A DNA stretch of 64,000 nucleotides from Rhizobium leguminosarum (GTDB lineage Bacteria; Pseudomonadota; Alphaproteobacteria; Rhizobiales; Rhizobiaceae). Positions within the stretch are counted from its first letter, which is position 1. Each line of letters begins with the position of its first letter. The translations under genes were made by a program, and so were the position numbers. The stretch spans positions 4,784,501-4,848,500 of the forward strand of contig NZ_CP016286.1 of NCBI RefSeq assembly GCF_001679785.1. Direction: 5' to 3'. This document shows positions 35,182-63,711 of this stretch, piece by piece. The notes beneath the pieces are model-generated. The model worked only from the letters and a program-made list of their open reading frames with translations, did no database searches and had not been told where the DNA came from.

Positions 35182-35200
35182 ATAGGGTTTCTGCCTTGCG
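35182..35200 (-). promoter_or_regulatory. Flagellar promoter box before motA
   Basis: On the minus strand CACGCAAG (hexamer 35200-35195), then 10 nt, then TATCGG at 35184-35179. The box shares CACGCAAG and the exact spacing with those before flgB and flgE. Confidence 0.65.
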
Positions 35201-35250
35201 TGAGGCTGATGAAAGGCCCGCTCGCGAGGCATTTCCGCGTGCCAGCTTCG

Positions 35251-35273
35251 CGCAAGCATCTGCCGTCAGTCTA
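35251..35273 (+). promoter_or_regulatory. Looser flagellar promoter box before flgF
   Basis: TTCGCGCAAGCATCTGCCG (hexamer 35251-35256) matches the left part of the box. The TA comes later (CTAAAGG at 35271) than the standard 16 nt. It lies about 145 bp upstream of flgF and 50 bp from the divergent motA box. Confidence 0.45.
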
Positions 35274-35397
35274 AAGGGGACGAATGGGTGCCCGCGCCCG
35301 TTTCTGAGATGCCGCCTCAGCGAAATCCCGGCCGAACCACATAAGACGACGCCCGGCTTTTCGTTCCGTTCATCGCCAATGCTTGGAGCTTACCGAC

Positions 35398-36132
35398 ATG
35401 CAATCCGGTCTTTATGTTTCTCTGTCGTCGCAGATGGCCCTCGAAAAGCGCCTGACCACTATCGCAGACAACATGGCGAACGTGAACACGACCGGTTTTC
35501 GCGCCACCGAGGTGAAGTTCGACGAGATGGTGGCAGCCACCAAGAACAAGCTGAACACCAAGGTCGCCTTCGTTTCCCAGGGCAACGACTACCTGAACGA
35601 GGGAAATGGCGAGTTGCAACACACCGGCAACATGCTCGATTTCGCCATCAAGGGTGATGCCTGGTTTTCGCTCGATACGCCGGCCGGCCGCGTCCTGACG
35701 CGGGACGGCCGCTTTACGATCAAGGATACCGGCGAACTCGTCTCGATCCGCGGATACCCGGTTCTTGACGCAGGCGGCGCGCCGATCCAGCTCAACACGA
35801 CAGGCGGCGAGCCGGCCGTCGGCACTGACGGCATCATCTATCAGGGCGGCCGCCAGATCGGCTCGCTCGGCCTGTTCGAGGCCGATGTCAGCAAGGGTTA
35901 CCTGCGCTACGAGAACAGCGGCATCATGACCACCGACCAGCCGCGCGCCGTCGTCGACCGCTTCAATGTCGGTGTCGAGCAGGGTTATCTCGAAAACTCC
36001 AACGTCAACGCCATGCGCGAGATCACCCAGCTGATCGAAGTCAACCGCGCCTTCGAAAGCGTCTCGTCGCTGATGCGCGACAGCGAGGATTCCTTCAAGG
36101 AAGCGGTTCAGACGCTTGGGGGCAGCCGCTAA
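35398..36132 (+). CDS. flgF: Flagellar basal-body rod protein FlgF
   Basis: A 244-residue proximal-rod protein with the N-terminal rod motif (ADNMANVNTTGFRATEV) and C-terminal motif (LENSNVNAMREITQLIEVNRAFES). ATG 35398 has GGAG 9 nt upstream; an in-frame TTG at 35383 is less likely. A RIME1 element starts within the stop codon. It is divergent from motA and leads the flgF-fliI-orf unit. Confidence 0.95.
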   Translation: MQSGLYVSLSSQMALEKRLTTIADNMANVNTTGFRATEVKFDEMVAATKNKLNTKVAFVSQGNDYLNEGNGELQHTGNMLDFAIKGDAWFSLDTPAGRVLTRDGRFTIKDTGELVSIRGYPVLDAGGAPIQLNTTGGEPAVGTDGIIYQGGRQIGSLGLFEADVSKGYLRYENSGIMTTDQPRAVVDRFNVGVEQGYLENSNVNAMREITQLIEVNRAFESVSSLMRDSEDSFKEAVQTLGGSR

Positions 36133-36234
36133 TGCATGTCGCCCAAAAGTGTCCGGCGGTTTTGGGAGAACGACATGAAGAACAAAGATCCAGAATACGT
36201 TGCATGCAGCAAGCTGCACGCGACGTATTTTAGG
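36131..36234 (+). repeat. RIME1-like intergenic mosaic element between flgF and fliI
   Basis: AATGCATGTCGCCCAAAAGTG...GCGGTTTTGGGAGAACGACATG, then AATACGTTGCATG...CACGCGACGTATTTTAG. It starts in the flgF stop codon and ends 15 bp before the fliI ATG, so it fills the whole intergenic gap of an apparent operon. Confidence 0.82.
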
Positions 36235-36248
36235 GTGGGATTTGAAGC

Positions 36249-37649
36249 ATGAGCACCACGCTACCATCAGTGGACGGTCTTTCTCCGAAGCTGGCGCATC
36301 TGGCGGACCTCGTCGACCGATACGCATCGCCGGAGTTCGCGGTTGCCCATGGCGGCCGCGTGCAGACCATCGCTGCCGGCCACTACACGGTTCACGGTCT
36401 CTCCCGCCATGTTCGCCTCGGCGAGTTCGTGGCCCATAAATCGGCCACCGGCATCCATCTGGGCGAGGTCGTGCGCGTCGAGCCGGAATTGATCTATGTC
36501 TGCCCGATCGAACCCGGCGAACCGATCGGTATCCATGATACCGTCATCCGCAAGGGCGCCTTCCGGATTTCACCGACGGACAGCTGGTGCGGGCGCACCG
36601 TCAACTCGCTCTGCGAGCCGATCGACGGGCTGGGCCCGATCACCGAGGGCCTCGATCGCCGCTCGATCTCCAATACCGCGCCGCCCTCGATGACCCGCAA
36701 GCGTGTCGAGACCGGCTTCAAGACCGGCGTGCGCGCGATCGACATCTTCTCGCCGCTCTGCCTCGGCCAGCGCCTCGGCATCTTCGCCGGTTCCGGCGTC
36801 GGCAAGTCGACGCTTCTGTCCATGCTCGCCCGCGCCGATGCCTTCGACAAGGTGGTCATTGCGCTCGTCGGCGAACGCGGCCGTGAAGTGCGCGAATTCA
36901 TTGAGGATACGCTCGGCAGCAATATGAAGAAGGCGATCGCCGTCGTCGCCACCAGCGACGAGAGCCCGATGCTGCGCAAGATGGCGCCGCTGACGGCGGT
37001 CACCATCGCCGAGCATTTCCGCGACAAGGGCGAGAACGTCCTCTTCATCGTCGATAGCGTCACGCGTTTCGCCCATGCGATCCGCGAGGTGGCGACCGCC
37101 TCCGGCGAACCGCCGATCGCGCGCGGTTATCCCGCCTCCGTTTTCACCGAGCTGCCTCGCCTCCTGGAGCGCGCCGGTCCCGGTCCCGAGGGCGCCGGCA
37201 CCATCACGGCGATCATCTCGATCCTCGTCGACGGCGACAATCACAATGACCCGATCGCCGATTCGACCCGCGGCATCCTCGACGGACATATCGTCCTGCA
37301 GCGCAGTCTCGCCGAAGAAGGGCGGTATCCCCCGATCGATCCGCTCGCCTCGATCTCGCGTCTTGCCCGCAAGGCCTGGACGCCGGATCAGGAAAAGCTG
37401 GTATCGCGGCTGAAGGTGCTGATCCATCGTTTCGAAGAGACACGCGACCTGCGCATGATCGGCGGTTACCGCCAGGGTGCTGATCCCGATCTCGACATGG
37501 CGATCAAGCAGGTGCCGATTATTTACGACGTCCTGAAGCAGTCTCCGGGCGATCGCGACTCGCTCGACGCTTTCACCGATCTCGCCGGCGCGCTCAAGGC
37601 TGCAGCCGGCATGGGCAATCAGGGCGCACCTATTCAGAGGAGAGCCTAG
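36249..37649 (+). CDS. fliI: Flagellar export ATPase FliI
   Basis: A 466-residue ATPase with Walker A GSGVGKST (~residue 178) and Walker B-like ENVLFIVDSVTRFAHA. SEDRPxx-type segments VGERGREVREFIE and GRYPPIDPLASISRL follow. It drives substrate unfolding at the export gate. No fliH lies next to it; the FliH-like gene at 51.8 kb may supply the regulator. Its ribosome site falls at the end of a RIME1 repeat. Confidence 0.97.
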   Translation: MSTTLPSVDGLSPKLAHLADLVDRYASPEFAVAHGGRVQTIAAGHYTVHGLSRHVRLGEFVAHKSATGIHLGEVVRVEPELIYVCPIEPGEPIGIHDTVIRKGAFRISPTDSWCGRTVNSLCEPIDGLGPITEGLDRRSISNTAPPSMTRKRVETGFKTGVRAIDIFSPLCLGQRLGIFAGSGVGKSTLLSMLARADAFDKVVIALVGERGREVREFIEDTLGSNMKKAIAVVATSDESPMLRKMAPLTAVTIAEHFRDKGENVLFIVDSVTRFAHAIREVATASGEPPIARGYPASVFTELPRLLERAGPGPEGAGTITAIISILVDGDNHNDPIADSTRGILDGHIVLQRSLAEEGRYPPIDPLASISRLARKAWTPDQEKLVSRLKVLIHRFEETRDLRMIGGYRQGADPDLDMAIKQVPIIYDVLKQSPGDRDSLDAFTDLAGALKAAAGMGNQGAPIQRRA

Positions 37650-37651
37650 AC

Positions 37652-38194
37652 GTGGCTGATTTCGACGACGAACGTATCGCTTCCCTGAAGCAGCGCAGGA
37701 AAGCCGCCATCCTGGATCGGTTTCTGACCTTCACCGGCCTGGCGCTTGCCGGCGCCGCCGCCTTCTTCCCCTGGTACGTCTTCTTCAACGCGGACAAGTT
37801 CGGCATTAATGTCGCAACCAGCGGCAATTCCCGCGAACTGCCGGATTGGCCGGCCCGCAACGTCTTCAGCGTCTCGCCGCTTGCCATGGTCAACAAGAAC
37901 GAGGCGGACAAGAAGGCCCCGCCGATCGATCCGCTGACGACGGCGACGGTCTCCGATCTCGGCAAGGAGCGCGATGGCCGCGCCATACAGGAAGATCAGC
38001 CTTTCCCCGGCAAATCTTCCTTCCGCCTGCTGCATGTTTCCAACGGCCGGGCGCTGATCGAGGATCCCTCGGGCATGTATGTGGTGCGCATCGGCTCGAT
38101 CCTGCCCGACGAAAGCCGTCTTGCGACACTCGAGCAGCGCGACGGCAAATGGGTGATCGTCACCTCCAAGGGCGAGATCTACCAGAACAATTGA
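37652..38194 (+). CDS. Membrane-anchored protein of unknown function, fliI operon
   Basis: A 180-residue protein with a GTG start and GAGGAG upstream. It has a short charged N-terminus, one membrane helix (~residues 23-45) and a mainly periplasmic remainder. The last ~50 residues (ALIEDPSGMYVVRIGSILPD...DGKWVIVTSKGEIY) look like the short beta domain of GspC/PilP-type secretion pilotins; this is my own comparison and unproven. It starts 3 bp after fliI and is followed by a terminator. Confidence 0.8.
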   Translation: MADFDDERIASLKQRRKAAILDRFLTFTGLALAGAAAFFPWYVFFNADKFGINVATSGNSRELPDWPARNVFSVSPLAMVNKNEADKKAPPIDPLTTATVSDLGKERDGRAIQEDQPFPGKSSFRLLHVSNGRALIEDPSGMYVVRIGSILPDESRLATLEQRDGKWVIVTSKGEIYQNN

Positions 38195-38219
38195 ACCTGT
38201 CCGCAAACGCCGAAGGCAA

Positions 38220-38259
38220 CAGGGGCTCCGCCGCGAACTGGCCGGAGCCCCTGTTTTTT
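38220..38259 (+). terminator. Terminator of the flgF-fliI operon
   Basis: CAGGGGCTCCG / CGGAGCCCCTG (11 bp, 12-nt loop) followed by TTTTTT. Confidence 0.9.
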
Positions 38260-38304
38260 ATTCCGTCATTTCCCAGATCGATTCCGATTTAGGGAATGAC
38301 GCAG

Positions 38305-38356
38305 AAATTCAAAGAGTTACAACGTCATTGCGCATCCGAAAGACGCGCGGCGTTAT
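38305..38356 (+). repeat. Second intergenic palindromic repeat family, copy 4
   Basis: AAATTCAAAGAGTTACAACG, then TCATTGCGCATCCG, then AAAGACGCGCGGCGTTATC. It matches the copies at 9.9, 15.3 and 44.6 kb and lies between the fliI-operon terminator and the flgB promoter. Confidence 0.65.
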
Positions 38357-38413
38357 CATCGCGGCGGCGTTCGCCGAAAACCGCGTCGACGCCTGAATTC
38401 CCCGTAAGTCCCA

Positions 38414-38431
38414 CGCAAGATTACCGCACTA
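38414..38431 (+). promoter_or_regulatory. Flagellar promoter box before flgB
   Basis: CACGCAAG (hexamer 38414-38419), then 10 nt, then TAGG at 38430, 31-48 bp before the flgB ATG. Confidence 0.65.
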
Positions 38432-38461
38432 GGTTCGGGACAGTAAAAACGGAGAGTTCTC

Positions 38462-38854
38462 ATGCAACCGATCCAACTTTTCGACTTGGCTTCGCGGCAG
38501 GCGGAATGGCTGACGATCCGTCAGCAGGTTGTTGCCGGCAACATCGCGAATGCCAATACCCCGAAGTTCCGCGCCAAGGACGTTACGCCCTTTGATGCGG
38601 TGCTCGACAATTCCAATATCAACATGGCGCGCACCAATCCGGCGCATCTCAGCGGCAACGATTTCAGCGACAGCGGCGATATCGACGTCAAGGACGCCGC
38701 GCTCGACCAGGAAATCGGTGTCCAGGAATCCGGCAATACGGTCGGTTTGGCCGAGGAGCTCTCCAAGTCGGGCGATATCAAGCGCCAGTACGATCTGAAC
38801 ACCTCGTTGGTCAGTTCCTTCAACCGCATGATGTTGATGACGGTCAGGAGGTAA
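38462..38854 (+). CDS. flgB: Flagellar basal-body rod protein FlgB
   Basis: A 130-residue proximal-rod protein with [19 protein letters not shown] near the N-terminus. It leads a ten-gene operon (flgB to fliP) with very short gaps or overlaps throughout. GGAG lies 9 nt upstream of the ATG. Confidence 0.95.
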
Positions 38855-38858
38855 AGTC

Positions 38859-39275
38859 ATGGATCCGCTTTCAGCAGCAATGAAAATTGCCGGTTCCGGG
38901 CTCGAGGCGCAATCGACGCGCCTGCGCATCGTTTCGGAAAATATCGCCAATGCCCGCTCGACCGGCGACACGCCCGGCGCTGACCCCTATCGTCGCAAGA
39001 CGATCACCTTCGGCCAGCAGATGGATCGCAGCAACGGCGTCGAGACTGTCGGCGTCAAGAAGGTCGGCGTCGACGAAGGCGACTTCAGCACTGAATTTGA
39101 CCCCAGCAATCCGGCTGCGGATCAGAAGGGCGTCGTCAAACTGCCGAACGTCAATATCCTGGTCGAGATGGCCGACATGCGCGAAGCCAACCGCTCGTAT
39201 GACGCCAATCTGCAGACCATCAAACAGACCCGCGATCTCATCTCCTCCACGATCGACCTCCTGAAGAGCCAATAA
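38859..39275 (+). CDS. flgC: Flagellar basal-body rod protein FlgC
   Basis: A 138-residue rod protein: [12 protein letters not shown] at the N-terminal rod motif and [17 protein letters not shown] at the C-terminal motif. It starts 4 bp after flgB. Confidence 0.95.
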
Positions 39276-39277
39276 TA

Positions 39278-39619
39278 ATGATCAGCAGCGTCCAGAATGT
39301 CAGCAACCTTTCGATGACCCGTGCGCTCGGCGCCGTCGATACCGAAAATTCCGCCTCGTCGTCTGCCGCCACCATGCCGGGCGCCGCCGGTGCGGCCAAT
39401 GGCATGAGCTTCGCCTCTGTCATGGGCAACATGGCGAGCGACGCGGTCAGCAGCCTGAAGGGTGCGGAAAGCATGTCCTTTGCCGGTATCAAGGGCACGG
39501 CGACGACGCGCGAAGTCGTCGATTCCATGCTCCAGGCCGAGCAAACGCTGCAGACCGCGATTGCCATCCGCGACAAGGTCGTCTCGGCCTTTCTCGAAGT
39601 CACCAAGATGCAGATGTAA
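39278..39619 (+). CDS. fliE: Flagellar hook-basal body protein FliE
   Basis: A 113-residue FliE, the adaptor between MS-ring and rod, with its conserved C-terminus (VVDSMLQAEQTLQTAIAIRDKVVSAF). The N-terminal third is Ser/Ala-rich and variable. It starts 2 bp after flgC. Confidence 0.95.
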   Translation: MISSVQNVSNLSMTRALGAVDTENSASSSAATMPGAAGAANGMSFASVMGNMASDAVSSLKGAESMSFAGIKGTATTREVVDSMLQAEQTLQTAIAIRDKVVSAFLEVTKMQM

Positions 39620-39638
39620 CTGATTTGAGGACGAACAC

Positions 39639-40427
39639 ATGAGAGCGCTCGCCATCGCAGCAACGGGCATGGATGCCCAGCAGACCAATCTGGAAGTCAT
39701 CGCGAACAACATCGCGAATATCAATACGACCGGTTTCAAGCGCGCCCGCGCCGAATTCTCGGATCTTCTCTACCAGACCGAACGTGCCAAGGGTGTCGCC
39801 AACCGCGCCAACCAGGCCGTCGTTCCGGAAGGTGCCAATATCGGCCTCGGCGTCCAGACCTCGGCGGTCCGCAACCTGCATCTCCAGGGCGAATTGACCC
39901 AGACCGGCAACGATCTCGACGTGGCGCTGATCGGCAAGGGCTTCTTCCAGATCCAGTCGACCGACGGTACGACGCTTTACAGCCGCGCCGGCGCCTTCAA
40001 CAAGAACGACCAGGGCCAGCTCGTCACCATCGACGGCTACGAGGTCCTTCCCGGCATCACCATTCCGACGGGCTCGACCGAGCTGACGATCAGCCGCTCC
40101 GGCCAGGTTTCGGCCAAGCTGCCGGGTGCGACGGATGCGACCGTGCTCGGTCAATTGACGCTTGCCGACTTCGTCAACGAGGCGGGTCTCCAGCCGCTCG
40201 GCGACAATCTCTTCCAGGAAACGCCGGCCTCCGGCGAAGCCGTCATCGGCAATCCTGACGAGGAAGGGTTCGCCTACATGAAGCAGGGTTATCTGGAATC
40301 TTCCAACGTCGACCCGGTGAAGGAAATCACCGAGCTGATCTCGGCCCAGCGCGCTTACGAAATGAATTCCAAGGTGATCACCACCGCTGACGAAATGGCC
40401 TCCATCGTCAGCAAGAACCTGAAGTAA
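39639..40427 (+). CDS. flgG: Flagellar distal-rod protein FlgG
   Basis: A 262-residue distal-rod protein of normal length with [19 protein letters not shown] and the C-terminal [19 protein letters not shown] motif. Confidence 0.97.
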
Positions 40428-40443
40428 AGGGAAGGGCCGAAAC

Positions 40444-40926
40444 ATGATGTTTTGCCGGGCAGGACACATCTCAGGATGGGTGGCGGCAGCCACGATCGCA
40501 GTCGCGGGCATTTTCTTGCCCGCGGACGTGGATGCCGGCATGGGTTATGCCGTCGTCCCGACGACGATCATCTACCCCGGCGACACATTGTCGTCGAGCC
40601 AGCTTCAGGAGGTCGAGGTCACCAACCCCAACCTCGCCGGCGACTATGCCAAATCCATTTCCCAGGTCGAAGGCATGGTCTCCAAGCGCACGCTGTTGCC
40701 GGGCCGCACGATTTCGGTTTCGGGTCTGCGCGAGGCCTATACGGTGACGCGCGGTTCTTCGATCCGCCTGGTCTTATCGCTCGGCGCGATGACGATCTCC
40801 GCCGCCGGCACGCCGCTCGAAGACGGCACGATCGGGCAGGTCGTTCGCGCGCGCAATATGGACTCCGGCGTCATCGTCAGCGGCACGGTGCTTGCGGACG
40901 GCACGGTCCATGTGAGGGCAAAATGA
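40444..40926 (+). CDS. flgA: P-ring chaperone FlgA
   Basis: A 160-residue secreted protein with a signal peptide (hydrophobic core ~10-25, probable cleavage near VDA-G). The SAF-type domain has LLPGRTISVSGLREAYTVTRG and ends GTVLADGTVHVRAK. It assists P-ring assembly in the periplasm. The stop overlaps the flgI ATG. Confidence 0.93.
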   Translation: MMFCRAGHISGWVAAATIAVAGIFLPADVDAGMGYAVVPTTIIYPGDTLSSSQLQEVEVTNPNLAGDYAKSISQVEGMVSKRTLLPGRTISVSGLREAYTVTRGSSIRLVLSLGAMTISAAGTPLEDGTIGQVVRARNMDSGVIVSGTVLADGTVHVRAK

Positions 40927-42044
40927 AATTGTTCTTCCGTTTCGTCACCCTTGTCGCGGTTCTCGCCATGAGTTTGGCCGATGTCGCGCCCGCCTGGGCG
41001 CTGACCTCCCGCATCAAGGATATTGCCTCCCTTCAGGCCGGGCGCGATAACCAGCTGATCGGTTATGGCCTCATCGTCGGCCTGCAGGGAACCGGCGACG
41101 GCTTCCGTGCCTCGCCGTTCACCGAGCAGTCGATGCGGGCAATGCTGCAGAATCTCGGCATCTCGACGCAGGGCGGTCAGTCCAACGCCAAGAATACCGC
41201 GGCCGTGATGGTCACCGCCAACCTGCCGCCCTTCGCAAGTCCCGGCAGTCGTATCGACGTGACGGTGAGCTCGCTCGGCGACGCGACGTCGCTGCGCGGC
41301 GGCACGCTCGTCATGACCTCGCTTTCCGGCGCCGACGGCCAGATCTATGCCGTCGCGCAGGGCGCTGTCATCGTCTCCGGTTTCCAGGCGCAGGGCCAGG
41401 CGGCGACCGTGACCGAAGGCGTCACCACCGCAGGCCGCGTGCCCGGCGGCGCGATCATCGAACGTGAACTGCCGTCCCGCTTCAAGGACTCGGTCAATCT
41501 CGTCCTGCAATTGCGCAACCCAGACTTCTCGACGGCGATCCGTATCGCCGACATCGTCAACGGTTATGCCTCGGCGCGCTTCGGCGGCCCGGTCGCCGAA
41601 GCCAAGGATTCGCAGGAAGTCGTGATCCAGAAGCCGCGCGCGGCCGATCTCACCCGGCTGATGGCCGACGTCGAAAACCTCATCGTCGAAACCGATACGC
41701 CGGCCAAGGTGGTCATCAACGAGCGCACCGGAACGATCGTTATCGGCTCCGACGTCCGCGTCTCGCCGGTCGCCGTCAGCTACGGCACCTTGACTGTCCA
41801 GGTCACCGAGACGCCGCAGATCATCCAGCCCGAACCCTTCTCGCGCGGCCGGACCGCCGTCCAGCCGCAGACCGATATCGCGGCCGAGCAGACTGGCGGG
41901 CGCGTCGCCATCATCGACGGTCCAGATCTCAGGACGCTTGTCGCCGGCCTCAACAATATCGGTGTGAAACCGGATGGCATCATCGCCATTCTCCAGGGCA
42001 TCAAGTCGGCAGGCGCTCTGCAGGCGGAGCTTGTGCTGCAATGA
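40923..42044 (+). CDS. flgI: Flagellar P-ring protein FlgI
   Basis: A 373-residue P-ring protein. A signal peptide (to ~AWA-L, residue 26) is followed by SRIKDIASLQAGRDNQLIGYGLIVGLQGTGD in sections and ends VKPDGIIAILQGIKSAGALQAELVLQ. The start overlaps flgA (ATGA); the frame is open far upstream but only as a shadow of flgA. Confidence 0.97.
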   Translation: MKLFFRFVTLVAVLAMSLADVAPAWALTSRIKDIASLQAGRDNQLIGYGLIVGLQGTGDGFRASPFTEQSMRAMLQNLGISTQGGQSNAKNTAAVMVTANLPPFASPGSRIDVTVSSLGDATSLRGGTLVMTSLSGADGQIYAVAQGAVIVSGFQAQGQAATVTEGVTTAGRVPGGAIIERELPSRFKDSVNLVLQLRNPDFSTAIRIADIVNGYASARFGGPVAEAKDSQEVVIQKPRAADLTRLMADVENLIVETDTPAKVVINERTGTIVIGSDVRVSPVAVSYGTLTVQVTETPQIIQPEPFSRGRTAVQPQTDIAAEQTGGRVAIIDGPDLRTLVAGLNNIGVKPDGIIAILQGIKSAGALQAELVLQ

Positions 42045-43296: not shown

Positions 43297-43308
43297 GGCT
43301 GAACGACG

Positions 43309-44549: not shown

Positions 44550-44577
44550 CCGGCTGCTGCCGCTTGGATTTTTCGCC

Positions 44578-44619
44578 AATGAAAGAACCCGTCGGATTGC
44601 TCCGGCGGGTTCTTTCATT
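44578..44619. terminator. Bidirectional terminator between fliP and the GT41 gene
   Basis: A 19-bp nearly perfect stem (AATGAAAGAACCCGTCGGA / TCCGGCGGGTTCTTTCATT) with a 4-nt loop TTGC and a T-rich right arm. It lies between converging genes. Confidence 0.85.
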
Positions 44620-44624
44620 ATGCA

Positions 44625-49291: not shown

Positions 49292-49358
49292 TTAACCATA
49301 ATGCTGTCTTCTGCGGCCAACGAGACGGAGAGTTAACCAAATTTAAGAACCGGTTAAC
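49292..49358 (+). promoter_or_regulatory. flaC: flaC upstream control element
   Basis: TTAACCAT (49292), TGCTGTC, CGAGACGGAGA, GTTAACC (49332-49338) and GGTTAAC (49352-49358), then AGGCATGAGGCTG. It parallels the flaB element. A further TTAACC lies at 49281. Confidence 0.6.
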
Positions 49359-51613: not shown

Positions 51614-51655
51614 GGTGGGCGCGATCACGGGTGGCGGCGGCGCCATTCATCCTCG

Positions 51656-51673
51656 CGCAAGTTTGACTGCCTA
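51656..51673 (+). promoter_or_regulatory. Flagellar promoter box before the FliH-like/motB operon
   Basis: CGCGCAAG (hexamer 51656-51661), then 10 nt, then TAGTTTCC at 51672. It lies 140-160 bp upstream of the FliH-like gene. Confidence 0.6.
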
Positions 51674-51814
51674 GTTTCCGGCATGAAGGCATCGTCCGAA
51701 TCCGTGCCGGTGCAAGGTCAGGCCCTTGCCCGTTTCGAAGGGGATGCCGGCGCGCAAGGTCACTTTGAGCGGGGGCGGGCATGCTGCATGCCTCCCGAAT
51801 GCTGGATGGTTTTT

Positions 51815-53776: not shown

Positions 53777-55072
53777 ATGGCGCGTCGGCAGCATCGCTAC
53801 GTCGGATTTGTGGCTCTCGGCCTGGCGATGCTTTCGCCGGCCGCAGCCAAAGCGCAGGATCCGGACGATCTCGCGCCGTATAAGATGCTGCGGTCGCTGC
53901 AATTCGTGCAGGATTCCGTCGTTACCGGCGATCATTCGGCCGGTGAGATGCAGCGCTTCATGCTGGGCACGATCGACACGCGGCTGCGCACCGTTGAACC
54001 GTCGATCTTCGACGACGACCGCAATGTCGACGCAGCGTTGATCTACACGATGAGCGGCGGCAATCCGCAGACGCTCGAATATCTGATCGCCCACGACGTC
54101 AACGGCTATTTCGACAACCGTGTCACCGACGTGCTGCGCAAATATCTGAGCGGCAAGGGCCTCCTCGTCGCCAAGACGCTGCAGGAGACGGCCAGGGAAT
54201 ATCGCGACAAGAAGATCGGCCCCTACCTTGCGCTGATCGGCGGCAACGTGCTGATCGCGACGAAACCGACAGACGCGCTGGATCTCTACGACCAGGCGCG
54301 TCTTGCCGCCCCGGGCACGATCGTCGAGGAGGCGGCGTTGCGCCGCTCACTCGCCATTTGCGTCGACAAGGGGATGCTCGACAAGGGAATGGCCTATTCG
54401 CAGCGCTATGTCAGACGCTTCCTGCATTCGCCCTATGCCAGCCAGTTCGCCGATCTTTTCGTCACCCTCGTCGTCGGCCACGATCACGACGTAAAGCCGC
54501 AGGATGTCATCGACATCCTGTCCTTCATGGACGCACCGCGCCAACGCGAGGTTTATCTGCGCATTGCCCGCGCCGCCGCTATATCAGGCAAGCCGGAGCT
54601 GGCGCGCATGGCGGTCGGACGCGTGCAGTCGCTTGGCGGCAGCACCGACAATGCTTTCGGTCCGCTCGCGGATTTCTATGGCGGCATGGCCGGCCTTCCC
54701 ACGGAGGATATCGATCAGGCAGCAAAGAATGTCAGCGGCATCGACGGCAATGCGCTTTCGCGGCGGGATCAGGCGCTGCAGGAGGCGGCGCGATCCGTTG
54801 CCGAGCAGATCCTGCGCGCTCCCGACCCGGCAAGCTTGACGCAAGCCTCCAATCCTAACACTGATCATCAAGAAATCACTTCTGAAAAGGCTGCGGCGAT
54901 AGCCATGAAAACGGGAGCGCCAGGCGCGCTTCCCGAGCCTGTTCCGGGAGGTGTGGTATCGACTGGCCAAAGCCAGGATACCGACCCCTCATTCAACGCA
55001 TTTGTGACGACCAGTCGATCCAAGCTCGATGAGATCGATGGTCTTCTGGCGCAAGAAGGCAACGAACCATGA
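53777..55072 (+). CDS. motC: Periplasmic motor protein MotC
   Basis: A 431-residue secreted protein, signal peptide ending near AKA-Q (residue 27), then a helical domain (FMLGTIDTRLRTVEPSIFDDDRNVDAALIYTMSGGNP in parts) with TPR-like repeats. In Sinorhizobium MotC binds MotB and is needed for stator function; MotE is its chaperone. It starts 4 bp after motB and overlaps fliK by 4 bp. Confidence 0.93.
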   Translation: MARRQHRYVGFVALGLAMLSPAAAKAQDPDDLAPYKMLRSLQFVQDSVVTGDHSAGEMQRFMLGTIDTRLRTVEPSIFDDDRNVDAALIYTMSGGNPQTLEYLIAHDVNGYFDNRVTDVLRKYLSGKGLLVAKTLQETAREYRDKKIGPYLALIGGNVLIATKPTDALDLYDQARLAAPGTIVEEAALRRSLAICVDKGMLDKGMAYSQRYVRRFLHSPYASQFADLFVTLVVGHDHDVKPQDVIDILSFMDAPRQREVYLRIARAAAISGKPELARMAVGRVQSLGGSTDNAFGPLADFYGGMAGLPTEDIDQAAKNVSGIDGNALSRRDQALQEAARSVAEQILRAPDPASLTQASNPNTDHQEITSEKAAAIAMKTGAPGALPEPVPGGVVSTGQSQDTDPSFNAFVTTSRSKLDEIDGLLAQEGNEP

Positions 55073-56505: not shown

Positions 56506-57010
56506 GGCGATCGCCTCCACCGGCGCCTGCGAACGCGAGATCCAGTCGGCAGCGGCCAAATACGGCATCCCGGAAGGCATCCTCTATTCGGTTGGGCTGA
56601 CGGAGACCGGCCGCAAGGGCTCGCTCTATCCCTACGCCATGAACGTCGAAGGCAAGGCGATCTTTCCGCCCTCGGAGCAGGACGCGATGCGGCAGTTCGA
56701 TGTCGCCCGCAGCGGCGGCGCGAAGCTCATCGACATCGGCTGCATGCAGATCAACCATTATTTTCACGGCGAGAATTTCCGCTCCGCCGAGGAGATGTTC
56801 GACCCGCATCGCAACGTGGAGTATGCAGCAAAATTCCTCCGCAATCTGCATGACCGTCACGAGACATGGACGATGGCGGTAGCCAGATACCATGCCGGAC
56901 CCAACAACAATCCGGCGCAGAAGCAATATGTCTGCCGCGTCATCTCCAATCTCGTCGCCACGGGCTACGGCAAGTGGACTCTCAATGCGAGTAACTTTTG
57001 TCGAAATTGA
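56432..57010 (+). CDS. Lytic transglycosylase-like secreted protein
   Basis: A 192-residue SLT-type muramidase: signal peptide (~1-28, LVLAAAAALVAFTSEAIAS), catalytic Glu58 in LYSVGLTETGRKG, IGCMQINHYFH and VARYHAGPNN. It probably opens peptidoglycan for the rod, like FlgJ in enterics. The start overlaps fliK by 74 bp, but GGAGG lies 6 nt before the ATG and the signal peptide needs this start. Rhizobial clusters have this gene between fliK and rem. Confidence 0.9.
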   Translation: MAQAIPVLKTLVLAAAAALVAFTSEAIASTGACEREIQSAAAKYGIPEGILYSVGLTETGRKGSLYPYAMNVEGKAIFPPSEQDAMRQFDVARSGGAKLIDIGCMQINHYFHGENFRSAEEMFDPHRNVEYAAKFLRNLHDRHETWTMAVARYHAGPNNNPAQKQYVCRVISNLVATGYGKWTLNASNFCRN

Positions 57011-57290
57011 TTCAACCAAAGATGGAAGAGGCGTATTGTGACGAAACTGTGTCACAATGTGGCAGGAATCCGGCGTGAATCTCCCGTGCAAGTCATATTT
57101 AACCGACTGTTAACTTTTCCACGAAATTTTGGTGTGCATAATCAGGCGTACCCACTAGATATAGATCAAATCGCTACCCAGATCTTAATCAATTATTAGT
57201 TTCTGCCATTAACTTTAACGAGTTGTCGCCGATTCGTGCGATTCGTACCCATAGATCATCGAAGTGCCACACTGATTCGGAGGCGGACGA
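57011..57290. other. Regulatory region upstream of rem
   Basis: 280 bp, AT-rich, no gene. It contains TTTAACCGACTGTTAAC (57098-57114), tandem GATTCGT boxes at 57231 and 57240, a third GATTCGG near the ribosome site, and GGAGG before the rem ATG. VisN/VisR are expected to bind here; which box they use is unknown. Confidence 0.5.
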
Positions 57291-57962
57291 ATGATCGTAG
57301 TGGTTGATGAGCGTGAGCTCGTGAAAGATGGATACACATCTCTGTTCGGTCGTGAGGGCATTCCCTCCACCGGCTTTGATCCAGCGGAATTTGGCGAGTG
57401 GGTACAGACCGCCGCCGATTCCGATATAGCTGCAGTCGAGGCCTTTCTGATCGGTCAGGGCCAGCGCAACTTCGAACTGCCCCGGGCGATCCGGGATCGG
57501 TCGATGGCGCCGGTGATTGCAGTCAGCGACCAGCACTCGCTCGAAAACACTCTTGCGCTTTTCGATTGCGGCGTCGACGACGTGGTGCGCAAACCGGTGC
57601 ATCCCCGCGAGATCCTCGCAAGGGCGGCTGCGATCCGGCGCCGGCTGAAGGCGATCACCAACTACACCGAGATCGGCGGGATCCGCGTCTTCTCGGATGG
57701 TCGTGACCCCGAGATCAACGGCGAAGTCTTCGCACTTCCCCGGCGCGAGCGCCGCATCCTCGAATATTTGATCGCCAATCGCGGTCGCCGGGTCACCAAG
57801 ACCCAGATCTTCAACGCCATCTACGGCATCTTCGATGAAGAAGTCGAGGAGAACGTCGTCGAAAGCCACATCTCGAAGCTGCGCAAGAAGCTGCGCAAAA
57901 AGCTCGGCGTCGATCCGGTCGATTCCAAGCGCTTCCTTGGTTACTGCATCGATTGGGCCTGA
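57291..57962 (+). CDS. rem: OmpR-like motility activator Rem
   Basis: A 223-residue regulator: receiver-like N-domain (~1-115) and winged-helix C-domain (~125-223: [33 protein letters not shown] in parts; [13 protein letters not shown]). The phosphoacceptor position in [13 protein letters not shown] appears to be Glu50, not Asp, so it probably works without phosphorylation. In Sinorhizobium Rem is the class II activator between VisNR and the structural operons and acts during exponential growth. Confidence 0.93.
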
Positions 57963-58033
57963 TTTCTCGGCCGGGCGGCGGCGCCCGGCTGAACCTCAAG
58001 TTAGCCTCGCAGCTCGCATGACAGACAGCTTCA

Positions 58034-58051
58034 CGCAAGGCCCGACAAATA
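58034..58051 (+). promoter_or_regulatory. Flagellar promoter box before flgE
   Basis: CACGCAAG (hexamer 58034-58039), then 10 nt, then TACTCTCG at 58050, 35-52 bp before the flgE ATG. Confidence 0.65.
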
Positions 58052-58085
58052 CTCTCGTGCATAACAGGTAAAACGAGGTTTTCAG

Positions 58086-59390
58086 ATGAGCATTTTCGGC
58101 AGCATGAAGACGGCAGTATCGGGGATGAACGCGCAGGCCAACCGCCTCAGCACCGTCGCCGACAACATCGCCAACGTTAACACCACCGGTTACAAGGCTG
58201 TGTCGACGAGCTTCTCGTCGCTGGTTCTGCCCTCCTCGGGTGGCAATTACAATTCCGGCGGCGTTCAGACCTCTGTCCGCCAGGCCGTCTCCGACCAGGG
58301 CGATATTTCCTACACCACGTCGAGCACCGACCTTGCAATCTCAGGCGACGGCTTCTTCATCGTCCAGGGTGCAGATGGTACGCCGGTTCTGACCCGCGCC
58401 GGCGACTTCACCAAGGACGACGAAGGCAACCTCGTCAACGCCGCCGGCTTTCAGCTGATGGGCTATTCCTACGACTCCGGCGCTCCGGCTGTCGTCGTCA
58501 ACGGCTTCGACGGCCTCGTTCCCGTCAATGTCAACCAGGATGGCCTGACCGCCATTGCCTCGACATCCGGTGTCTTCAAGGGCAACCTCGATTCCAACGC
58601 CAAGGTCGCTCCGGTCGCTCCTGCGACGCTGCCGAGCGCCAATGCCGCCACCACGACAACCGACACGAAGAAGGTCTCGATGGTCGCCTATGACCGTCTC
58701 GGCAACAAGGTGATGTACGACTTCTACTTCACGAAGCAATCGGTCGTGACGCCGCCGCCGGCACCCCCCGCTACGGCTGCCACCTGGGAAGTGGCAATGT
58801 TCCGCAACGCCGATGCTGCGGTCGGCGGCACAACCTCCTTCCCCTACTCCACCGCCGGGGGCGATGTCGGCACCGGAACGATCACCTTCGACGCCAACGG
58901 CAAGTTGACCACGGGCGGCGCCATTAACATTGTCGATCCGGTGACTGGCCAGACGATTGCCATGGATTTCTCGGCCTTCACACAGCTCGGTGCCGACTTC
59001 TCCGGCACCGGTACGCCGAACGGCCAGGCAGCGACCCCGGTCAAGGACGTCACGGTTGATGGGGACGGCATCGTCTACGCGAAATACGAAGACGGCAGCA
59101 CCAAGCCGCTCTATCGTATTCCGCTGGCCAATGTCGCCAGCCCCGACAAGCTGACGCTGATGAGCGGCAACGTCTACAGCGCCAACGGCCAGTCGGGCGT
59201 CACCGTCACCGGCTTCCCGCAGACCAACGGTCTCGGCACGATCAAATCAGGCGCTCTCGAAGGCTCGAACGTCGACCTCGCCGGCGAGCTGACCGAGATG
59301 ATCGAATCGCAGCGCAGCTATACCGCCAATTCCAAGGTGTTCCAGACGGGATCCGACATTATGGACGTTCTCGTCAACCTCAAGAGATAA
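58086..59390 (+). CDS. flgE: Flagellar hook protein FlgE
   Basis: A 434-residue hook protein with ADNIANVNTTGYKAVSTSFSS at the N-terminus, ISGDGFFIVQGADG, and the C-terminal LEGSNVDLAGELTEMIESQRSYTANSKVFQ motif in parts. It leads the operon to fliQ and perhaps beyond. Confidence 0.97.
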   Translation: MSIFGSMKTAVSGMNAQANRLSTVADNIANVNTTGYKAVSTSFSSLVLPSSGGNYNSGGVQTSVRQAVSDQGDISYTTSSTDLAISGDGFFIVQGADGTPVLTRAGDFTKDDEGNLVNAAGFQLMGYSYDSGAPAVVVNGFDGLVPVNVNQDGLTAIASTSGVFKGNLDSNAKVAPVAPATLPSANAATTTTDTKKVSMVAYDRLGNKVMYDFYFTKQSVVTPPPAPPATAATWEVAMFRNADAAVGGTTSFPYSTAGGDVGTGTITFDANGKLTTGGAINIVDPVTGQTIAMDFSAFTQLGADFSGTGTPNGQAATPVKDVTVDGDGIVYAKYEDGSTKPLYRIPLANVASPDKLTLMSGNVYSANGQSGVTVTGFPQTNGLGTIKSGALEGSNVDLAGELTEMIESQRSYTANSKVFQTGSDIMDVLVNLKR

Positions 59391-59409
59391 GCAAGGTACC
59401 GGGTAAGCC

Positions 59410-60897
59410 ATGTCGCTCACGTCAGCACTTAATACCGCGCAGAACATATTCAACAATACGGGCACTCAGAGCAGTGTCGTATCGAACAATATCTCGAATG
59501 CGGGCAACAAAGATTACGTGCGCCGGCAGGCGATGCTCACCACGTCCTTGAACGGCGCGCAGGTCGTCAAGATCGACCGGGCGCAGGAAGAGGCGCTGCT
59601 GCGCCAATACCTGAAGACATCCTCTCAGGACAGTGCCCAGCAGGCATTGCTCGGCGGTCTTGAGGACCTCAAGTCGATCGTGGGTGGCAACGACTACGAA
59701 ACGTCGCCATCCACCTATCTCGGTGTTTTCCAGCAAAAGCTTCAGGCCTTCCGCACGACGCCGGGCAGCACCGTCGCCGCTCAGGGCGCCATCACCGCCG
59801 CGCAGGACGTCGCGAACTCGCTGAACAATGCCTCGCAATCTGTTCAGAACGTCCGCGCCACCGCCGACAAGCAGATCGCCACCGACGTCGATAAGCTGAA
59901 TACGCTTCTCAGCGACTTCGAGAAGGCCAACAATGCGGTGAAGACCGCCACGGCCTCGGGTGCGGATGCATCCGGCGCCCTCGACGAACGTGAGAAGGCT
60001 CTCAAGCAGATTTCGCAGATCGTCGGCGTCAACACGACGACGCGCGACAATAACGACATGGTGCTGAGCACGTCTGACGGGACGATCCTCTTCGAGACAA
60101 TCCCGCGCAAGGTGACGTTCAAGTCTCAGGATGTCTATACCGCGACCATCACCGGCAATTCGGTCTATATCGACGGTGTGGCACTTCCGCGCGGCAGCGG
60201 ATCGACGACGACGGCACAGGGAAGCCTTCAGTCTCTCCTCCAGGTGCGCGACGAAATCGCCCCGAACTTCCAGAAGCAGCTCGACGAAGTCGCCCGCGGC
60301 CTGGTCTCGCTCTTCAAGGAGCAGAACACGGTGGCCGGTCCCGCCTATGTGCCAGGCCTCTTCAACTGGAGCGGCGGTACGGTCGATACCGGCGCCACCG
60401 CGGTTGCCGGCATGGCGGCGACTATCACGGTCAGCAGCAGAGTCATTACCTCGCAAGGCGGCGATCCGATGCGCCTGCGCGATGGTGGCGTCAACGCCAC
60501 TGGCCTCGTCCTGAACACGTCAGGCGCCAGCGGTTATACGACTGAACTCGATCGTCTCTATACTGCATTGGGCTCCGACATCGATTTCGATCCAGCGGCG
60601 GGGACGCCGGTCGGGTTCGACGCCACGACCGGCATCGATTCAAACGTCAGCATCATGGAATTCGCCACAAATTCCCTCGGCTGGCTCGAACAGTACCGCA
60701 GCAACGCCACGACGGCGGCGGAAAACACCTCGGCGGCGCTGTCACGCTCCGACGAAGCCTATTCCAACGAGACGGGCGTCAACCTGGACGAGGAACTGAC
60801 GCTGCTCCTCGACATAGAGCAGTCCTACAAGGCGGCGACCAAGATCCTGAACGCCGTTGACGAAATGTTGAAGTCATTGCTGGATATTGCGAGTTAA
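59410..60897 (+). CDS. flgK: Hook-filament junction protein FlgK
   Basis: A 495-residue HAP1 with NNISNAGNKDYVRRQAM at the N-terminus and GVNLDEELTLLLDIEQSYKAATKIL near the C-terminus. It is slightly shorter than the enteric protein. Confidence 0.95.
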   Translation: MSLTSALNTAQNIFNNTGTQSSVVSNNISNAGNKDYVRRQAMLTTSLNGAQVVKIDRAQEEALLRQYLKTSSQDSAQQALLGGLEDLKSIVGGNDYETSPSTYLGVFQQKLQAFRTTPGSTVAAQGAITAAQDVANSLNNASQSVQNVRATADKQIATDVDKLNTLLSDFEKANNAVKTATASGADASGALDEREKALKQISQIVGVNTTTRDNNDMVLSTSDGTILFETIPRKVTFKSQDVYTATITGNSVYIDGVALPRGSGSTTTAQGSLQSLLQVRDEIAPNFQKQLDEVARGLVSLFKEQNTVAGPAYVPGLFNWSGGTVDTGATAVAGMAATITVSSRVITSQGGDPMRLRDGGVNATGLVLNTSGASGYTTELDRLYTALGSDIDFDPAAGTPVGFDATTGIDSNVSIMEFATNSLGWLEQYRSNATTAAENTSAALSRSDEAYSNETGVNLDEELTLLLDIEQSYKAATKILNAVDEMLKSLLDIAS

Positions 60898-60900
60898 GCC

Positions 60901-61953
60901 ATGAAGAGCTCATTTATTTCAAGTTCGGCCATTCAGAATGCGATGCGGTTGACGATCCGTCAGGCGCAGAACCAGATGACGAAGGCGACGATGGAAGCGA
61001 CGACGGGAGTCTATGCCGATATCGGCGTCTCGCTCGGCGGCAACGCCGCCAGGAGCGTCGACTTCAGCCGCGAGGTCGACCGGATAGCCTCGATCAAATC
61101 AAGCAATTCGCTTGTCACCGCGCGCATGGAATCCTCGCAGCTCGGCCTTTCCAAGATGAAGGATGTCGGCGACGGCCTCGTTTCGAAGCTGACGGCGCTC
61201 CAGGGCAGCCACGACCCAGGCAGCATCACCGTCGCCATCCAATCGGCGACCAGCGCCCTGTCCACGATGATGGATACGGCCAATACCATGGTAAACGGCG
61301 AATATCTGTTCTCGGGCATCAACACCGATGTGCAGCCGCTGACAGACAAGACGGCCGCGACGAGTGCTGCCATCGTCACGCAGTTGAATGCATACGCCGC
61401 CGCTCTTGTCCCCCCGAAGGCAGTCAAGGATCTGACCGGCGCCGAAATGAGCACCTTCATCACCACGACGGTGGAGCCGATGTTCAGCCAGGCTGCCTGG
61501 ACCGACCCGACGACCGGTTGGTCGCAGGCGTCGAACCAGAACATGACGAGCCGCATCAGCAACTCCGAAGTGATCGAATCCTCGACCAATGCCAATTCCG
61601 AGGGCATGCGCTACTTCGCGCTCGCCTCGGTGATGGCCTCGGCACTGTTAGGACAGGGCCTCAGCAGCGATGCGATGAGCACGGTGTCCAAGCAGGCGAT
61701 CAGTTACACAGCAAAGGCGACCAGCGGCCTCGTGACACAGGCAAGCCAGCTCGGTCTTTCCCAGGAGCGCGTCAAGAAGTCCAACGACGCTCTCGACGCT
61801 CAATCGAACATCATCAAGAACAAGCTCGTCGATCTCCAGGGCGTCGATCCTTACGAGGCGTCGACCCTCGTCAAGACTTTGGAAACGCAGCTTGAAACGG
61901 CTTACACGATCGTCTCGAAGATCCAGCAGTTGAGTCTAGTAAACTACCTTTGA
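60901..61953 (+). CDS. flgL: Hook-filament junction protein FlgL
   Basis: A 350-residue flagellin-like HAP3, weakly conserved (DVGDGLVSKLTALQG; NGEYLFSGINTDVQPLTD; ETQLETAYTIVSKIQQLSLVNYL). It starts 3 bp after flgK, which supports the call. Confidence 0.92.
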   Translation: MKSSFISSSAIQNAMRLTIRQAQNQMTKATMEATTGVYADIGVSLGGNAARSVDFSREVDRIASIKSSNSLVTARMESSQLGLSKMKDVGDGLVSKLTALQGSHDPGSITVAIQSATSALSTMMDTANTMVNGEYLFSGINTDVQPLTDKTAATSAAIVTQLNAYAAALVPPKAVKDLTGAEMSTFITTTVEPMFSQAAWTDPTTGWSQASNQNMTSRISNSEVIESSTNANSEGMRYFALASVMASALLGQGLSSDAMSTVSKQAISYTAKATSGLVTQASQLGLSQERVKKSNDALDAQSNIIKNKLVDLQGVDPYEASTLVKTLETQLETAYTIVSKIQQLSLVNYL

Positions 61954-61987
61954 TGATCAAAGGCGCGCAATAAAGAAGGATGCATGA

Positions 61988-62335
61988 ATGTATCAGTTCT
62001 CATATGCCGAAGTCATGCAGGACTCGGTGGCCGACGCGAAAGAGCGGGAATGGCAGGTTCTTGACCGGTCCATAGACCTGCTGGCGGCGGCGCGCGAAAA
62101 GGAAAAATACGGCCGGGAAGCCATTGAAGCCCTGTTTTATACCCGCCGGGTGTGGATCAGCTTCATCGAGGATCTCAAACATCCCGACAACCAGCTGGAG
62201 ATCGGGCTCAGGGCCAACCTCATCTCGATCGCGATCTGGATATTGAAGGAATGCGACAGGATCAGAAAACGTCAGTCTAATAACTACCAGGGCATCATCG
62301 ACGTTACCACCATCATCAGGGATGGACTTAAATGA
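61988..62335 (+). CDS. flaF: Flagellin synthesis regulator FlaF
   Basis: A 115-residue FlaF ([44 protein letters not shown]). In Caulobacter FlaF promotes flagellin synthesis and secretion, opposed by FlbT. AAGGA precedes the ATG, and its stop overlaps the flbT start. Confidence 0.95.
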
Positions 62336-62781
62336 AAAGCACACTTCGCATTTCTCTGAAAGCCGGAGAAAGAATCTTCATCAACGGCGCCGTCCTGCGC
62401 GTCGACCGTAAGGTCGCGCTGGAATTCCTGAATGATGTGACGTTCCTTCTCGAAAACCACGTCCTCCAGCCGGAGGGCGCCACGACGCCGCTGCGTCAGC
62501 TCTATTTCATCGCGCAGATGATCCTCATCAACCCTGAGGGCAAGGACCAGTCGACGGCTTTGTTCCGCAAGTCGATCACCATGCTGCTCTCCTGCTTCAA
62601 GAACGAGGAAATCCTCGCCGAACTGAAGCGCATCGATGCGCTCGTCTCGACAGGCCGTGCCTTCGACGCACTCAAGGCGATCCGCGGCCTTTACGCCATC
62701 GAAGACAATATCCTCAACAACCACGAAATGCCGCCGACGATGGTCGAGCAGATTCGCAGGGAGATTGCACCATGGCGGTAG
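62332..62781 (+). CDS. flbT: Flagellin mRNA regulator FlbT
   Basis: A 149-residue FlbT ([37 protein letters not shown] in parts; [13 protein letters not shown]). FlbT proteins bind flagellin mRNA leaders and control their translation and decay. The conserved SD-pairing hairpins before flaA, flaB and flaC are plausible targets. The 3' end overlaps flgD by 10 bp. Confidence 0.95.
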
Positions 62782-63215
62782 ATGCAACATCGAACGTGGC
62801 CAAAACGAGTTCGACGACCACAACGAACACGGCCCAGACGAAGGCGACGCTGAACTACGACAATTTCCTTCAACTGCTCATCGCGCAGATGAAGAACCAG
62901 GATCCGACCGATCCGATGGATGCCAGCGAGCAGATGTCGCAGCTGGCAAGCTTCTCGCAGGTCGAACAGACGATCCAGACCAACACCAAGCTGGACACAC
63001 TTCTGGCAAGCTCCAGCCTCACCCAAGCGAGCAGCTACGTCGGCAAATACATGGAAAGCGCCGACGGTAAGGTTAAGGGCACCATCGAATCCGTCAAGGT
63101 TTATTCGGACGGAATCATTGCGACAACCACGGCTGGCGGGAATATACTCGTGCAGGCGGGAATCACTATTGCCGACAAGGCGCCGACCACGTCGACCGAC
63201 ACCAGCGATACCTGA
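62772..63215 (+). CDS. flgD: Hook cap/scaffold protein FlgD
   Basis: A 147-residue FlgD limited to the conserved N-terminal part ([40 protein letters not shown] in parts) and one short beta region. It is much shorter than the E. coli protein (231), as usual in rhizobia. Confidence 0.95.
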
Positions 63216-63314
63216 TACCCACGGCGCCGGTGCGCCGCATAAGTCGGGTGATACCAATCAATGGCGGTCCGGCCACGGCGGGGCCGCTTCAGGGCGATAT
63301 GAGGTTGCCTTCGG

Positions 63315-63581
63315 ATGAATGAAGCTGATGCATTGGATCTGTTTCAGGCGGCGATCTGGACCGTCCTGATTGCCGCCGGTCCCGCCGTCATTGCGGCAAT
63401 GGTGGTGGGTCTCGTCATTGCCTTGATCCAGGCGCTGACTCAGGTGCAGGAAGCGACACTGACCTTCGTGCCGAAGATCGTAGCGGTGCTGATCACCGTC
63501 GGGGTCACAGCACCCTTCGTCGGCTCGCAGATCTCGATTTTCACCAATCTGGTCTTCTCTCGCATCCAGTCCGGTTTCTAG
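63315..63581 (+). CDS. fliQ: Flagellar export gate protein FliQ
   Basis: An 88-residue protein with two membrane helices (AAIWTVLIAAGPAVIAAMVVGLVIALIQALTQVQEATLTFVPK in parts), normal for FliQ. The stop TAG is also the first bases of a RIME-like element. Confidence 0.96.
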   Translation: MNEADALDLFQAAIWTVLIAAGPAVIAAMVVGLVIALIQALTQVQEATLTFVPKIVAVLITVGVTAPFVGSQISIFTNLVFSRIQSGF

Positions 63582-63684
63582 GGCAATTCCAGCAAAAGTG
63601 CGCAGCGGTTTTGCGTCGGGGATTGCGTAGAAACAAAAGGTTAGAGCGGTTCTACGCTTCCATGAGAAGCTGAACCGCTCTGAG
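63579..63684 (+). repeat. RIME-like element between fliQ and flhA
   Basis: TAGGGCAATTCCAGCAAAAGTG, then GCGGTTTTGCG near 63605, then a second palindrome with AGAGCGGTTC...GAACCGCTCT (63643-63682). It belongs to the same family as the copies at 9.1 and 25.8 kb (opposite orientation). It separates fliQ from the flhA promoter box. Confidence 0.75.
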
Positions 63685-63693
63685 CCACCTTCG

Positions 63694-63711
63694 CGCAAGC
63701 TTCGCCATTTA
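63694..63711 (+). promoter_or_regulatory. Flagellar promoter box before flhA
   Basis: CGCGCAAG (hexamer 63694-63699), then 10 nt, then TAATTCTCG at 63710. It lies 63-80 bp upstream of the flhA ATG. Confidence 0.6.

Follow-up and report, generated by a model that had tools for sequence, protein, structure and literature searches.

Tandem-repeat boxes upstream of flagellar operons in Rhizobium leguminosarum as candidate Rem operators of class II promoters

A 64-kb stretch of Rhizobium leguminosarum DNA (contig NZ_CP016286.1, positions 4,784,501 to 4,848,500; "the window" below) carries a flagellar gene cluster in which one short box, CRCAAG followed after ten bases by TA, had been noted upstream of six operons, and the question is what this box is and which protein reads it. 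The original prediction took it for a candidate class II promoter or Rem signature, and this has become the best-supported reading, given the structure of the element, its spacing, its operon specificity and its co-occurrence with rem. Judged from sequence comparison, the box is very probably an operator for Rem, an OmpR-type response regulator encoded in the window, fused to a housekeeping -10 element and marking Rem-dependent class II promoters. Gene names follow Pfam for fliF, flgB, flgE, flgF, motA, motB, fliI, fliK, fliG, flhB, fliP, cheA, three flagellins and two LuxR-type proteins, and PF00771 for flhA; for motC, orf38, visN/visR, rem and all other genes, the name is the one that gene order suggests. 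The products of orf38 and motC have no Pfam match, "FliH-like" being the original prediction's label for the former. That Rem controls class II genes is already known: it is a direct activator of them (PMC9812332), and the same regulator and the same kind of operon have been described in Sinorhizobium meliloti and R. leguminosarum (PMC8429497, PMC9812332, PMC7617929). A printed Rem operator sequence was not found in the part of this literature covered, and the motif may already have been described.

All six boxes (motA, fliF, flgB, orf38, flgE and flhA) lie where they had been reported, with exactly 16 nt from the start of CRCAAG to TA. In the window, CRCAAG-N10-TA occurs 11 times against an expectation of 1.21, and the longer CRCRCAAG-N10-TA seven times against 0.26, a count reached by none of 100 shuffles. 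Genome-wide (8.57 Mb, eight contigs) the octamer pattern has 30 matches, and the window holds seven of them where the density elsewhere predicts 0.17 (P ~ 8e-10). Read backwards it has 89, so the pattern is not common through base composition, and a variant with TA shifted one base further has no match in this genome. Since the pattern was picked after inspection of the window, the relatives are the fair test, and there it holds; the box is confirmed as real and far from chance. The list of members did need extending. A seventh octamer match (16991-17010, minus), unmentioned before, precedes a conserved open reading frame (ORF) of 37 aa, and the hexamer matches at 30289 (minus, inside flhB) and 54840 (plus, inside motC) also score with a weight matrix trained on 85 Rhizobiaceae sites, which at its threshold of 11 gives 0.66 matches per 100 kb of Markov sequence. 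Matrix scores below 7 were obtained for the two hexamer matches left over, 15621 on the minus strand and 31371 on the plus strand (the latter within CGCGTCGCA...TGCGACGCG), and these were taken as chance.

A model built from 89 aligned sites, using sequence only, ranked orf38, flhA, fliF, motA and flgE first to fifth in the genome and flgB seventh, with the flgF and flhB-internal sites also among its 15 matches (150 of 2,327 first-look candidates were scored). Rank six is a box (G000:C1:2580951, minus, matrix score 25.6) preceding a conserved 53-aa Rhizobium protein distant from the flagellar cluster. It was dropped as a target: with a strict pattern, 30 of 40 genus genomes show the flgB site and only one, the window's own, shows this box, though such a pattern would miss a diverged copy.

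For the relatives, 60 kb around rem were taken from 36 genomes, flagellar genes were placed by tblastn, and the interval from -350 to +60 of each gene was scanned; the counts leave out upstream regions shorter than 200 bases and tblastn matches not exceeding 50 bits. Together with the window, making 37 clusters, the octamer box precedes 89 of 143 orthologs of the six operons and 6 of 531 copies of 22 other flagellar or che genes (two cheA matches among the six may be slicing artefacts). It was found upstream of none of the rem (0/37), visN (0/16), flaA (0/27), fliP (0/26) and fliI (0/25) genes scanned. Neither sum includes flgF (1/28), motB (0/27) or mcp (1/10): the tblastn start of flgF was often too late for the 350-base reach, and its row in genome G106 is the flgE site of that genome. 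The motA row of G198 and the mcp row of G108 give impossible distances, arising from slicing at region edges, and neither is among the 89. Over 80 public-record loci (Rhizobium, Sinorhizobium/Ensifer, Xaviernesmea and other Rhizobiales isolates, many of them close relatives and so not independent), the matrix has 334 matches in 1.63 Mb, 19 of them unassigned, and none at rem (0/80) or flaA (0/76). Outside the Rhizobiaceae the matrix detects further, diverged sites. The claim that the box is absent before flagellins, visN and rem stands for the window; beyond it, four flaA genes outside the Rhizobiaceae (G364, G304, G262 and G231) have a matrix match 150-200 bp upstream, and none of the Rhizobiaceae flaA genes examined has one.

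One member within coding sequence lies at the 3' end of flhB (PF01312, 377.9 bits), facing a 147-aa ORF (30177-29734) with no Pfam match. The matrix site is kept in 14 of the 18 Rhizobiaceae clusters having flhB. Its Gln codon is CAA in all 14, CAA making up 12% of Gln codons in the flagellar genes of these 14 genomes, and GAT encodes its Asp in 13 of them, compared with a general usage of 35%; two site-less Rhizobiaceae that keep the Gln use CAG, and the other two carry another residue. Selection on the DNA would be the simplest reading of this bias, with the caveat that the genomes are related. None of the seven flhB-bearing clusters outside the Rhizobiaceae showed the site; six aligned, and G304 fell in an alignment gap, with no matrix hit at that place. 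The codons also bear on the view that the boxes are a non-regulatory remnant, left by duplication or common ancestry of upstream DNA or thrown up by base composition. Close relatives do have spacers in common; between operons and genera, however, the spacers vary while box and spacing stay constant, shuffles and reversed patterns yield few matches, and the Gln codon follows the presence of the site, so that a remnant is scarcely credible.

Aligned with TA at -12/-11, the 89 sites read M-36 A-35 n n Y-32 T-31 C R C R C A A G-23 n Y-21 T-20 S R-18, with C-13 TAG n n T-7 downstream. The search pattern fixed CRCRCAAG, T-12 and A-11; conservation at positions free of its demand includes A-35 (98%), T-31 (80%), T-20 (67%) and T-7 (74%). 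Autocorrelation within sites peaks at a lag of 11, where 4.13 of 8 positions are identical (the remaining lags between 6 and 16 give 0.94-3.13), and the sites thus consist of two direct half-sites with an 11-bp period, as expected of an OmpR/PhoB-family operator. The exact form CAAG-N7-CAAG is present in the window at 17017 (minus), 54831 and 59381, the last without a matrix match, and also in many genus relatives of the 17017 site. Read from this alignment, CRCAAG appears to cover chiefly the second unit of the 11-bp tandem repeat, with TA opening a TAnnnT -10 element.

With TA left unrequired, 109 CRCRCAAG copies were found before the six genes; TA follows at exactly ten nucleotides in 89 of them, and no other spacing is seen more than five times. 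The remark that the gap is too short for a -35/-10 pair holds. This spacing bears on a promoter for an alternative sigma factor, FliA-like or of the extracytoplasmic function class, in which CRCAAG would be the -35 and CTA the -10. Such a promoter would explain a fixed distance to a conserved TA, but it is very improbable, since sigma-70-family spacers are longer than ten bases (about 15-19 bp between -35 and -10 in canonical sigma-70 and FliA promoters), the upstream element has a tandem-repeat structure, and the downstream one, TAnnnT preferring T at -7, is as for the housekeeping sigma factor. To our knowledge, rhizobia have no FliA. The arrangement is instead Pho-box-like, with an operator about 10 bp before a putative sigma-70 -10 and no -35; in a simple promoter scan, neither 35000-38500 nor 56900-58100 gave a canonical sigma-70 promoter.

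In the Rem reading, the protein would bind as two protomers arranged head-to-tail, one on each 11-bp half-site, ideally CAAG-N7-CAAG and here MAnnYTCRC-RCAAGnYTSR from -36 to -18, the conserved CAAG ending ten bases before a TAGnnT -10. A usable -35 is missing, so recruitment of RNA polymerase would fall to Rem: adjoining the enzyme, it would substitute for the -35 and activate from TAGnnT, as PhoB does at pho boxes. We infer that Rem binds the box, that TA belongs to the -10, and that transcription would start about 10-12 nt downstream. In E. coli the pho box occupies the -35 position near a sigma-70 -10 (PMC4971064); it shares tandem 11-bp units (a 7-bp repeat plus 4 bp) with the present box but has another half-site, and PhoB is activated by phosphorylation, whereas Rem has no acceptor Asp.

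The window's Rem matches Trans_reg_C, the winged-helix domain, at 57.3 bits, and the receiver domain at 26 bits, under the Pfam cut-off of 30.2. Position 50, the phospho-acceptor site, is Glu (Glu50) in the window; among 37 orthologs it is Glu in 23 and Asp in one, in keeping with the description of Rem as "aspartate-less" (PMC9812332). Without the acceptor, output would follow the amount of Rem and not a kinase signal. The protein is 100% identical to Rem of Rhizobium johnstonii 3841 and of several R. leguminosarum strains.

Genomes with the operator encode this winged-helix regulator. Across 199 genomes of the order (sums tallied by hand), the 26-base pattern MANNYTCRCRCAAG-N10-TA has 88 matches against 7 for its reversed control in the 47 genomes with rem, and 38 against 35 in the 152 without. 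Near 20 flhA genes of the Rem-type flagellum, only one of which (G153) is from the Rhizobiaceae, the matrix finds 51 sites in 391 kb, distributed over 18 regions, and ten more in 79 kb of four further regions with rem. It finds none at the other flhA of seven rem-bearing genomes with two flagellar sets (28 kb), none in 13 genomes lacking rem (52 kb) and none in three Rhizobiaceae with FlhA but without rem (56 kb), which makes 0 sites in 136 kb at flhA genes not of the Rem type; region lengths differ (about 20 kb for the Rem type, 4 kb for the others apart from three of 16-20 kb), so these are to be compared as rates per base. Some non-Rhizobiaceae clusters (e.g. G304, G364 and G262) have boxes and no VisN/VisR match above 50 bits in 60 kb, so VisNR is unlikely to be the reader; the box appears to track rem across genomes, and not visNR, within the 60 kb searched. 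FlhA itself falls into two score classes against PF00771 in 155 genomes of the order: among the matches listed, 38 full-length proteins at 770-807 bits all come from genomes with rem, and the other full-length ones score 843-882 bits. The tie between Rem and FlhA class is imperfect, G301 having rem and a sole FlhA of the other class.

Several observations weigh against Rem as the reader or the box as its general mark. The octamer misses 54 of the 143 target promoters, 34 of them outside the Rhizobiaceae and 20 inside (by tally); 14 of the 47 rem-bearing genomes lack a strict 26-base match, and 2 of the 20 Rem-type flhA regions lack a matrix match. The -10 is weak at fliF, motA, flgF and flhA. 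Rem reportedly regulates its own gene, and a box sought at rem to fit this was not found: besides the absence of the octamer from all 37 upstream regions, an operator-only score of at least 9 occurs in two, both outside the Rhizobiaceae. A simple scan of 56900-58100 found no terminator-like site, and read-through into rem from the orf38 or fliK promoter is possible. Brucella encodes FtcR, which we take to be the Rem ortholog. Chromatin immunoprecipitation sequencing (ChIP-seq) of FtcR, which is reported to bind upstream of fliF, gave the 8-mer TGTGGGCA, unlike the box, in 118 of 363 peaks (PMC9456535). Finally, rem and the Rem-type flagellum are co-inherited, so that another co-inherited regulator could read the box: of 24 Rhizobiaceae found without rem, 20 were searched and only three have FlhA. 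These last two points, and the fact that Rem binding is itself predicted, speak for a reader that is another OmpR-type or an unrelated regulator inherited with the flagellar type, Rem acting elsewhere. We consider this improbable, as an 11-bp tandem repeat suits a reader resembling OmpR or CtrA, the cluster itself encodes Rem, a regulator of the OmpR type (other such genes were not sought), and VisNR is disfavoured by the clusters described above.

A second box type occupies complementary positions. The full CtrA site, TTAA-N7-TTAA, known from the fla2 genes of Rhodobacter sphaeroides and from flagellar promoters of Caulobacter, shares with the present box the 11-bp period, a conserved A at -11 and an association with flagellar genes. 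The R. sphaeroides operator ends 23-24 nt before the start (PMC6180460) and the last G of CAAG lies at -23 if TA is -12/-11, so the geometry looks alike although the half-site differs. The present sites hold CAAG/CA and not TTAA half-sites, their proposed reader is Rem and not CtrA, and in the window the two boxes lie before different operons: TTAA-N7-TTAA occurs in four places, all before operons without a Rem box (Table 1). The third flagellin gene has neither. In S. meliloti, flaA, flaB and flaC are direct CtrA targets and flgBCDH and fliEFIL indirect ones, a split that the window's division between flagellin and flg/fli genes matches; the S. meliloti rem promoter has a CtrA motif that is unbound in ChIP-seq, and rem does not respond to CtrA depletion (PMC4433202). 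The box upstream of rem may therefore be non-functional. As a general mark of flagella not of the Rem type, CtrA-type boxes (4 in 80 kb against a mean of 0.25 for other spacings) are suggestive only.

A broader scheme can be offered tentatively, with somewhat less than an even chance that all its parts hold together. Two orthogonal four-letter codes, sharing one promoter chassis, would divide the flagellar cluster between them, with CAAG-N7-CAAG read by Rem at the operons for basal body, hook, motor and export, and TTAA-N7-TTAA read by CtrA at the flagellins and rem; Rem-type flagella would have left direct CtrA control by a swap of half-sites that kept the geometry and brought in a phosphorylation-independent regulator; and intragenic Rem promoters in flhB and motC, with a Rem-driven 37-aa protein, would enlarge the regulon. 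The box itself gives a sequence definition for class II flagellar promoters, valid for the Rhizobiaceae and for certain further families of the order, from which a Rem-type regulon could be predicted in a genome. It predicts internal promoters (flhB, motC) and a small-protein gene, and offers a reason for flagellins and rem behaving unlike basal-body genes. It also invites another look at the motif reported for FtcR.

Table 1. Candidate promoters, CtrA-type boxes and rem, by position in the window
Feature	Position	Strand	Parts	Basis or context
fliF promoter	25922..25951	+	operator 25922-25940; -10 25946-25951 TATTCG, last base weak; ATG 26004	matrix score 28.5; octamer box in 17/25 fliF
motA promoter	35179..35208	-	operator 35208-35190; -10 35184-35179 TATCGG	matrix score 26.0; octamer box in 16/24 motA
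flgF promoter	35243..35272	+	operator 35243-35261; degenerate -10 CAGTCT 35267-35272	divergent from motA; matrix score 16.9; operator-only 18.6
flgB promoter	38406..38435	+	operator 38406-38424 (AAGTCCCACGCAAG); -10 TAGGTT 38430-38435	matrix score 26.7; octamer box in 16/25 flgB
orf38-motB-motC operon promoter	51648..51677	+	operator 51648-51666; -10 TAGTTT 51672-51677	score 37.8, genome rank 1; octamer in 8/14 orf38; 80/80 public-record loci
flgE promoter	58026..58055	+	operator 58026-58044; -10 TACTCT 58050-58055	score 28.0; octamer in 17/29 flgE; 80/80 public-record loci
flhA promoter	63686..63715	+	operator 63686-63704; -10 TAATTC 63710-63715; ATG 63774	score 30.3; octamer in 15/26 flhA; 78/78 public-record loci
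Intragenic candidate promoter, flhB 3' end	30268..30297	-	operator 30297-30279; -10 TAGTGT 30273-30268	score 25.4
Intragenic candidate promoter, motC 3' end	54832..54861	+	CAAG-N7-CAAG from 54831; -10 TAACAC 54856-54861, poor	score 18.1
Candidate promoter of 37-aa ORF	16987..17016	-	CAAG-N7-CAAG from 17017; -10 TATATG	score 19.0
rem	57291..57962	+	response regulator of the OmpR type with a C-terminal winged helix	proposed reader of the box
CtrA-type TTAA-N7-TTAA	57099..57113	+		upstream of rem; no Rem box found there
CtrA-type TTAA-N7-TTAA	48062..48076	+		upstream of first flagellin gene (Pfam flagellin)
CtrA-type TTAA-N7-TTAA	49281..49295	+		upstream of second flagellin gene (Pfam flagellin)
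CtrA-type TTAA-N7-TTAA, second copy	49343..49357	+		upstream of second flagellin gene

Individual promoters add detail to this picture. For motA, the predicted +1 near 35172 coincides with the ATG at 35173, where the ORF starts; translation from 35173 is hence unlikely, and ATG 35143 appears the likelier start. The start of orf38 is likely ATG 51815. At flgF, the original prediction saw a left half (35251) without the TA spacing; there is indeed no TA, the T at -12 being replaced by C, but the site counts as a member, with a counterpart adjoining motA in 17 of 20 Rhizobiaceae clusters, window included (by tally), and a TA in some relatives. The left half described at 17318, before the che operon, found no such support and was excluded, scoring below 7 with the matrix and below 8 with the operator alone.

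The motC-internal site lies upstream of fliK (ATG 55069), and a match within 330 bp upstream of fliK is found in 77 of the 80 public-record loci. The 37-aa ORF is membrane-like (MIVLGLGACLIAMTLLAAVARLDSLAANRDMRALRVF; codons 16947-16837, minus) and divergent from the che operon. Its site scores from 8.4 to 23.3 with the matrix in 15 fetched genus relatives (40 searched), where the ORF is conserved, and tblastn gave no convincing match to the ORF in the 36 other clusters, some of which end short of that region.

In the same part of the window, an intergenic stretch of about 140 bp upstream of the che operon (17093-17235) retains 82-86% identity in distant members of the genus, its flanks having diverged; at gathering thresholds the window has no match to any Rfam family. 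The first gene of the che operon encodes a protoglobin-coupled chemoreceptor (17367-19013, plus; Protoglobin and MCPsignal domains). Between fliP and the flagellins lies a gene for a 657-aa family 41 glycosyltransferase (PF13844; 44693-46666, minus), possibly acting in flagellin glycosylation, with a weak operator upstream (46751, minus) that scores 12.6 as operator only and 8.8 with the full matrix.

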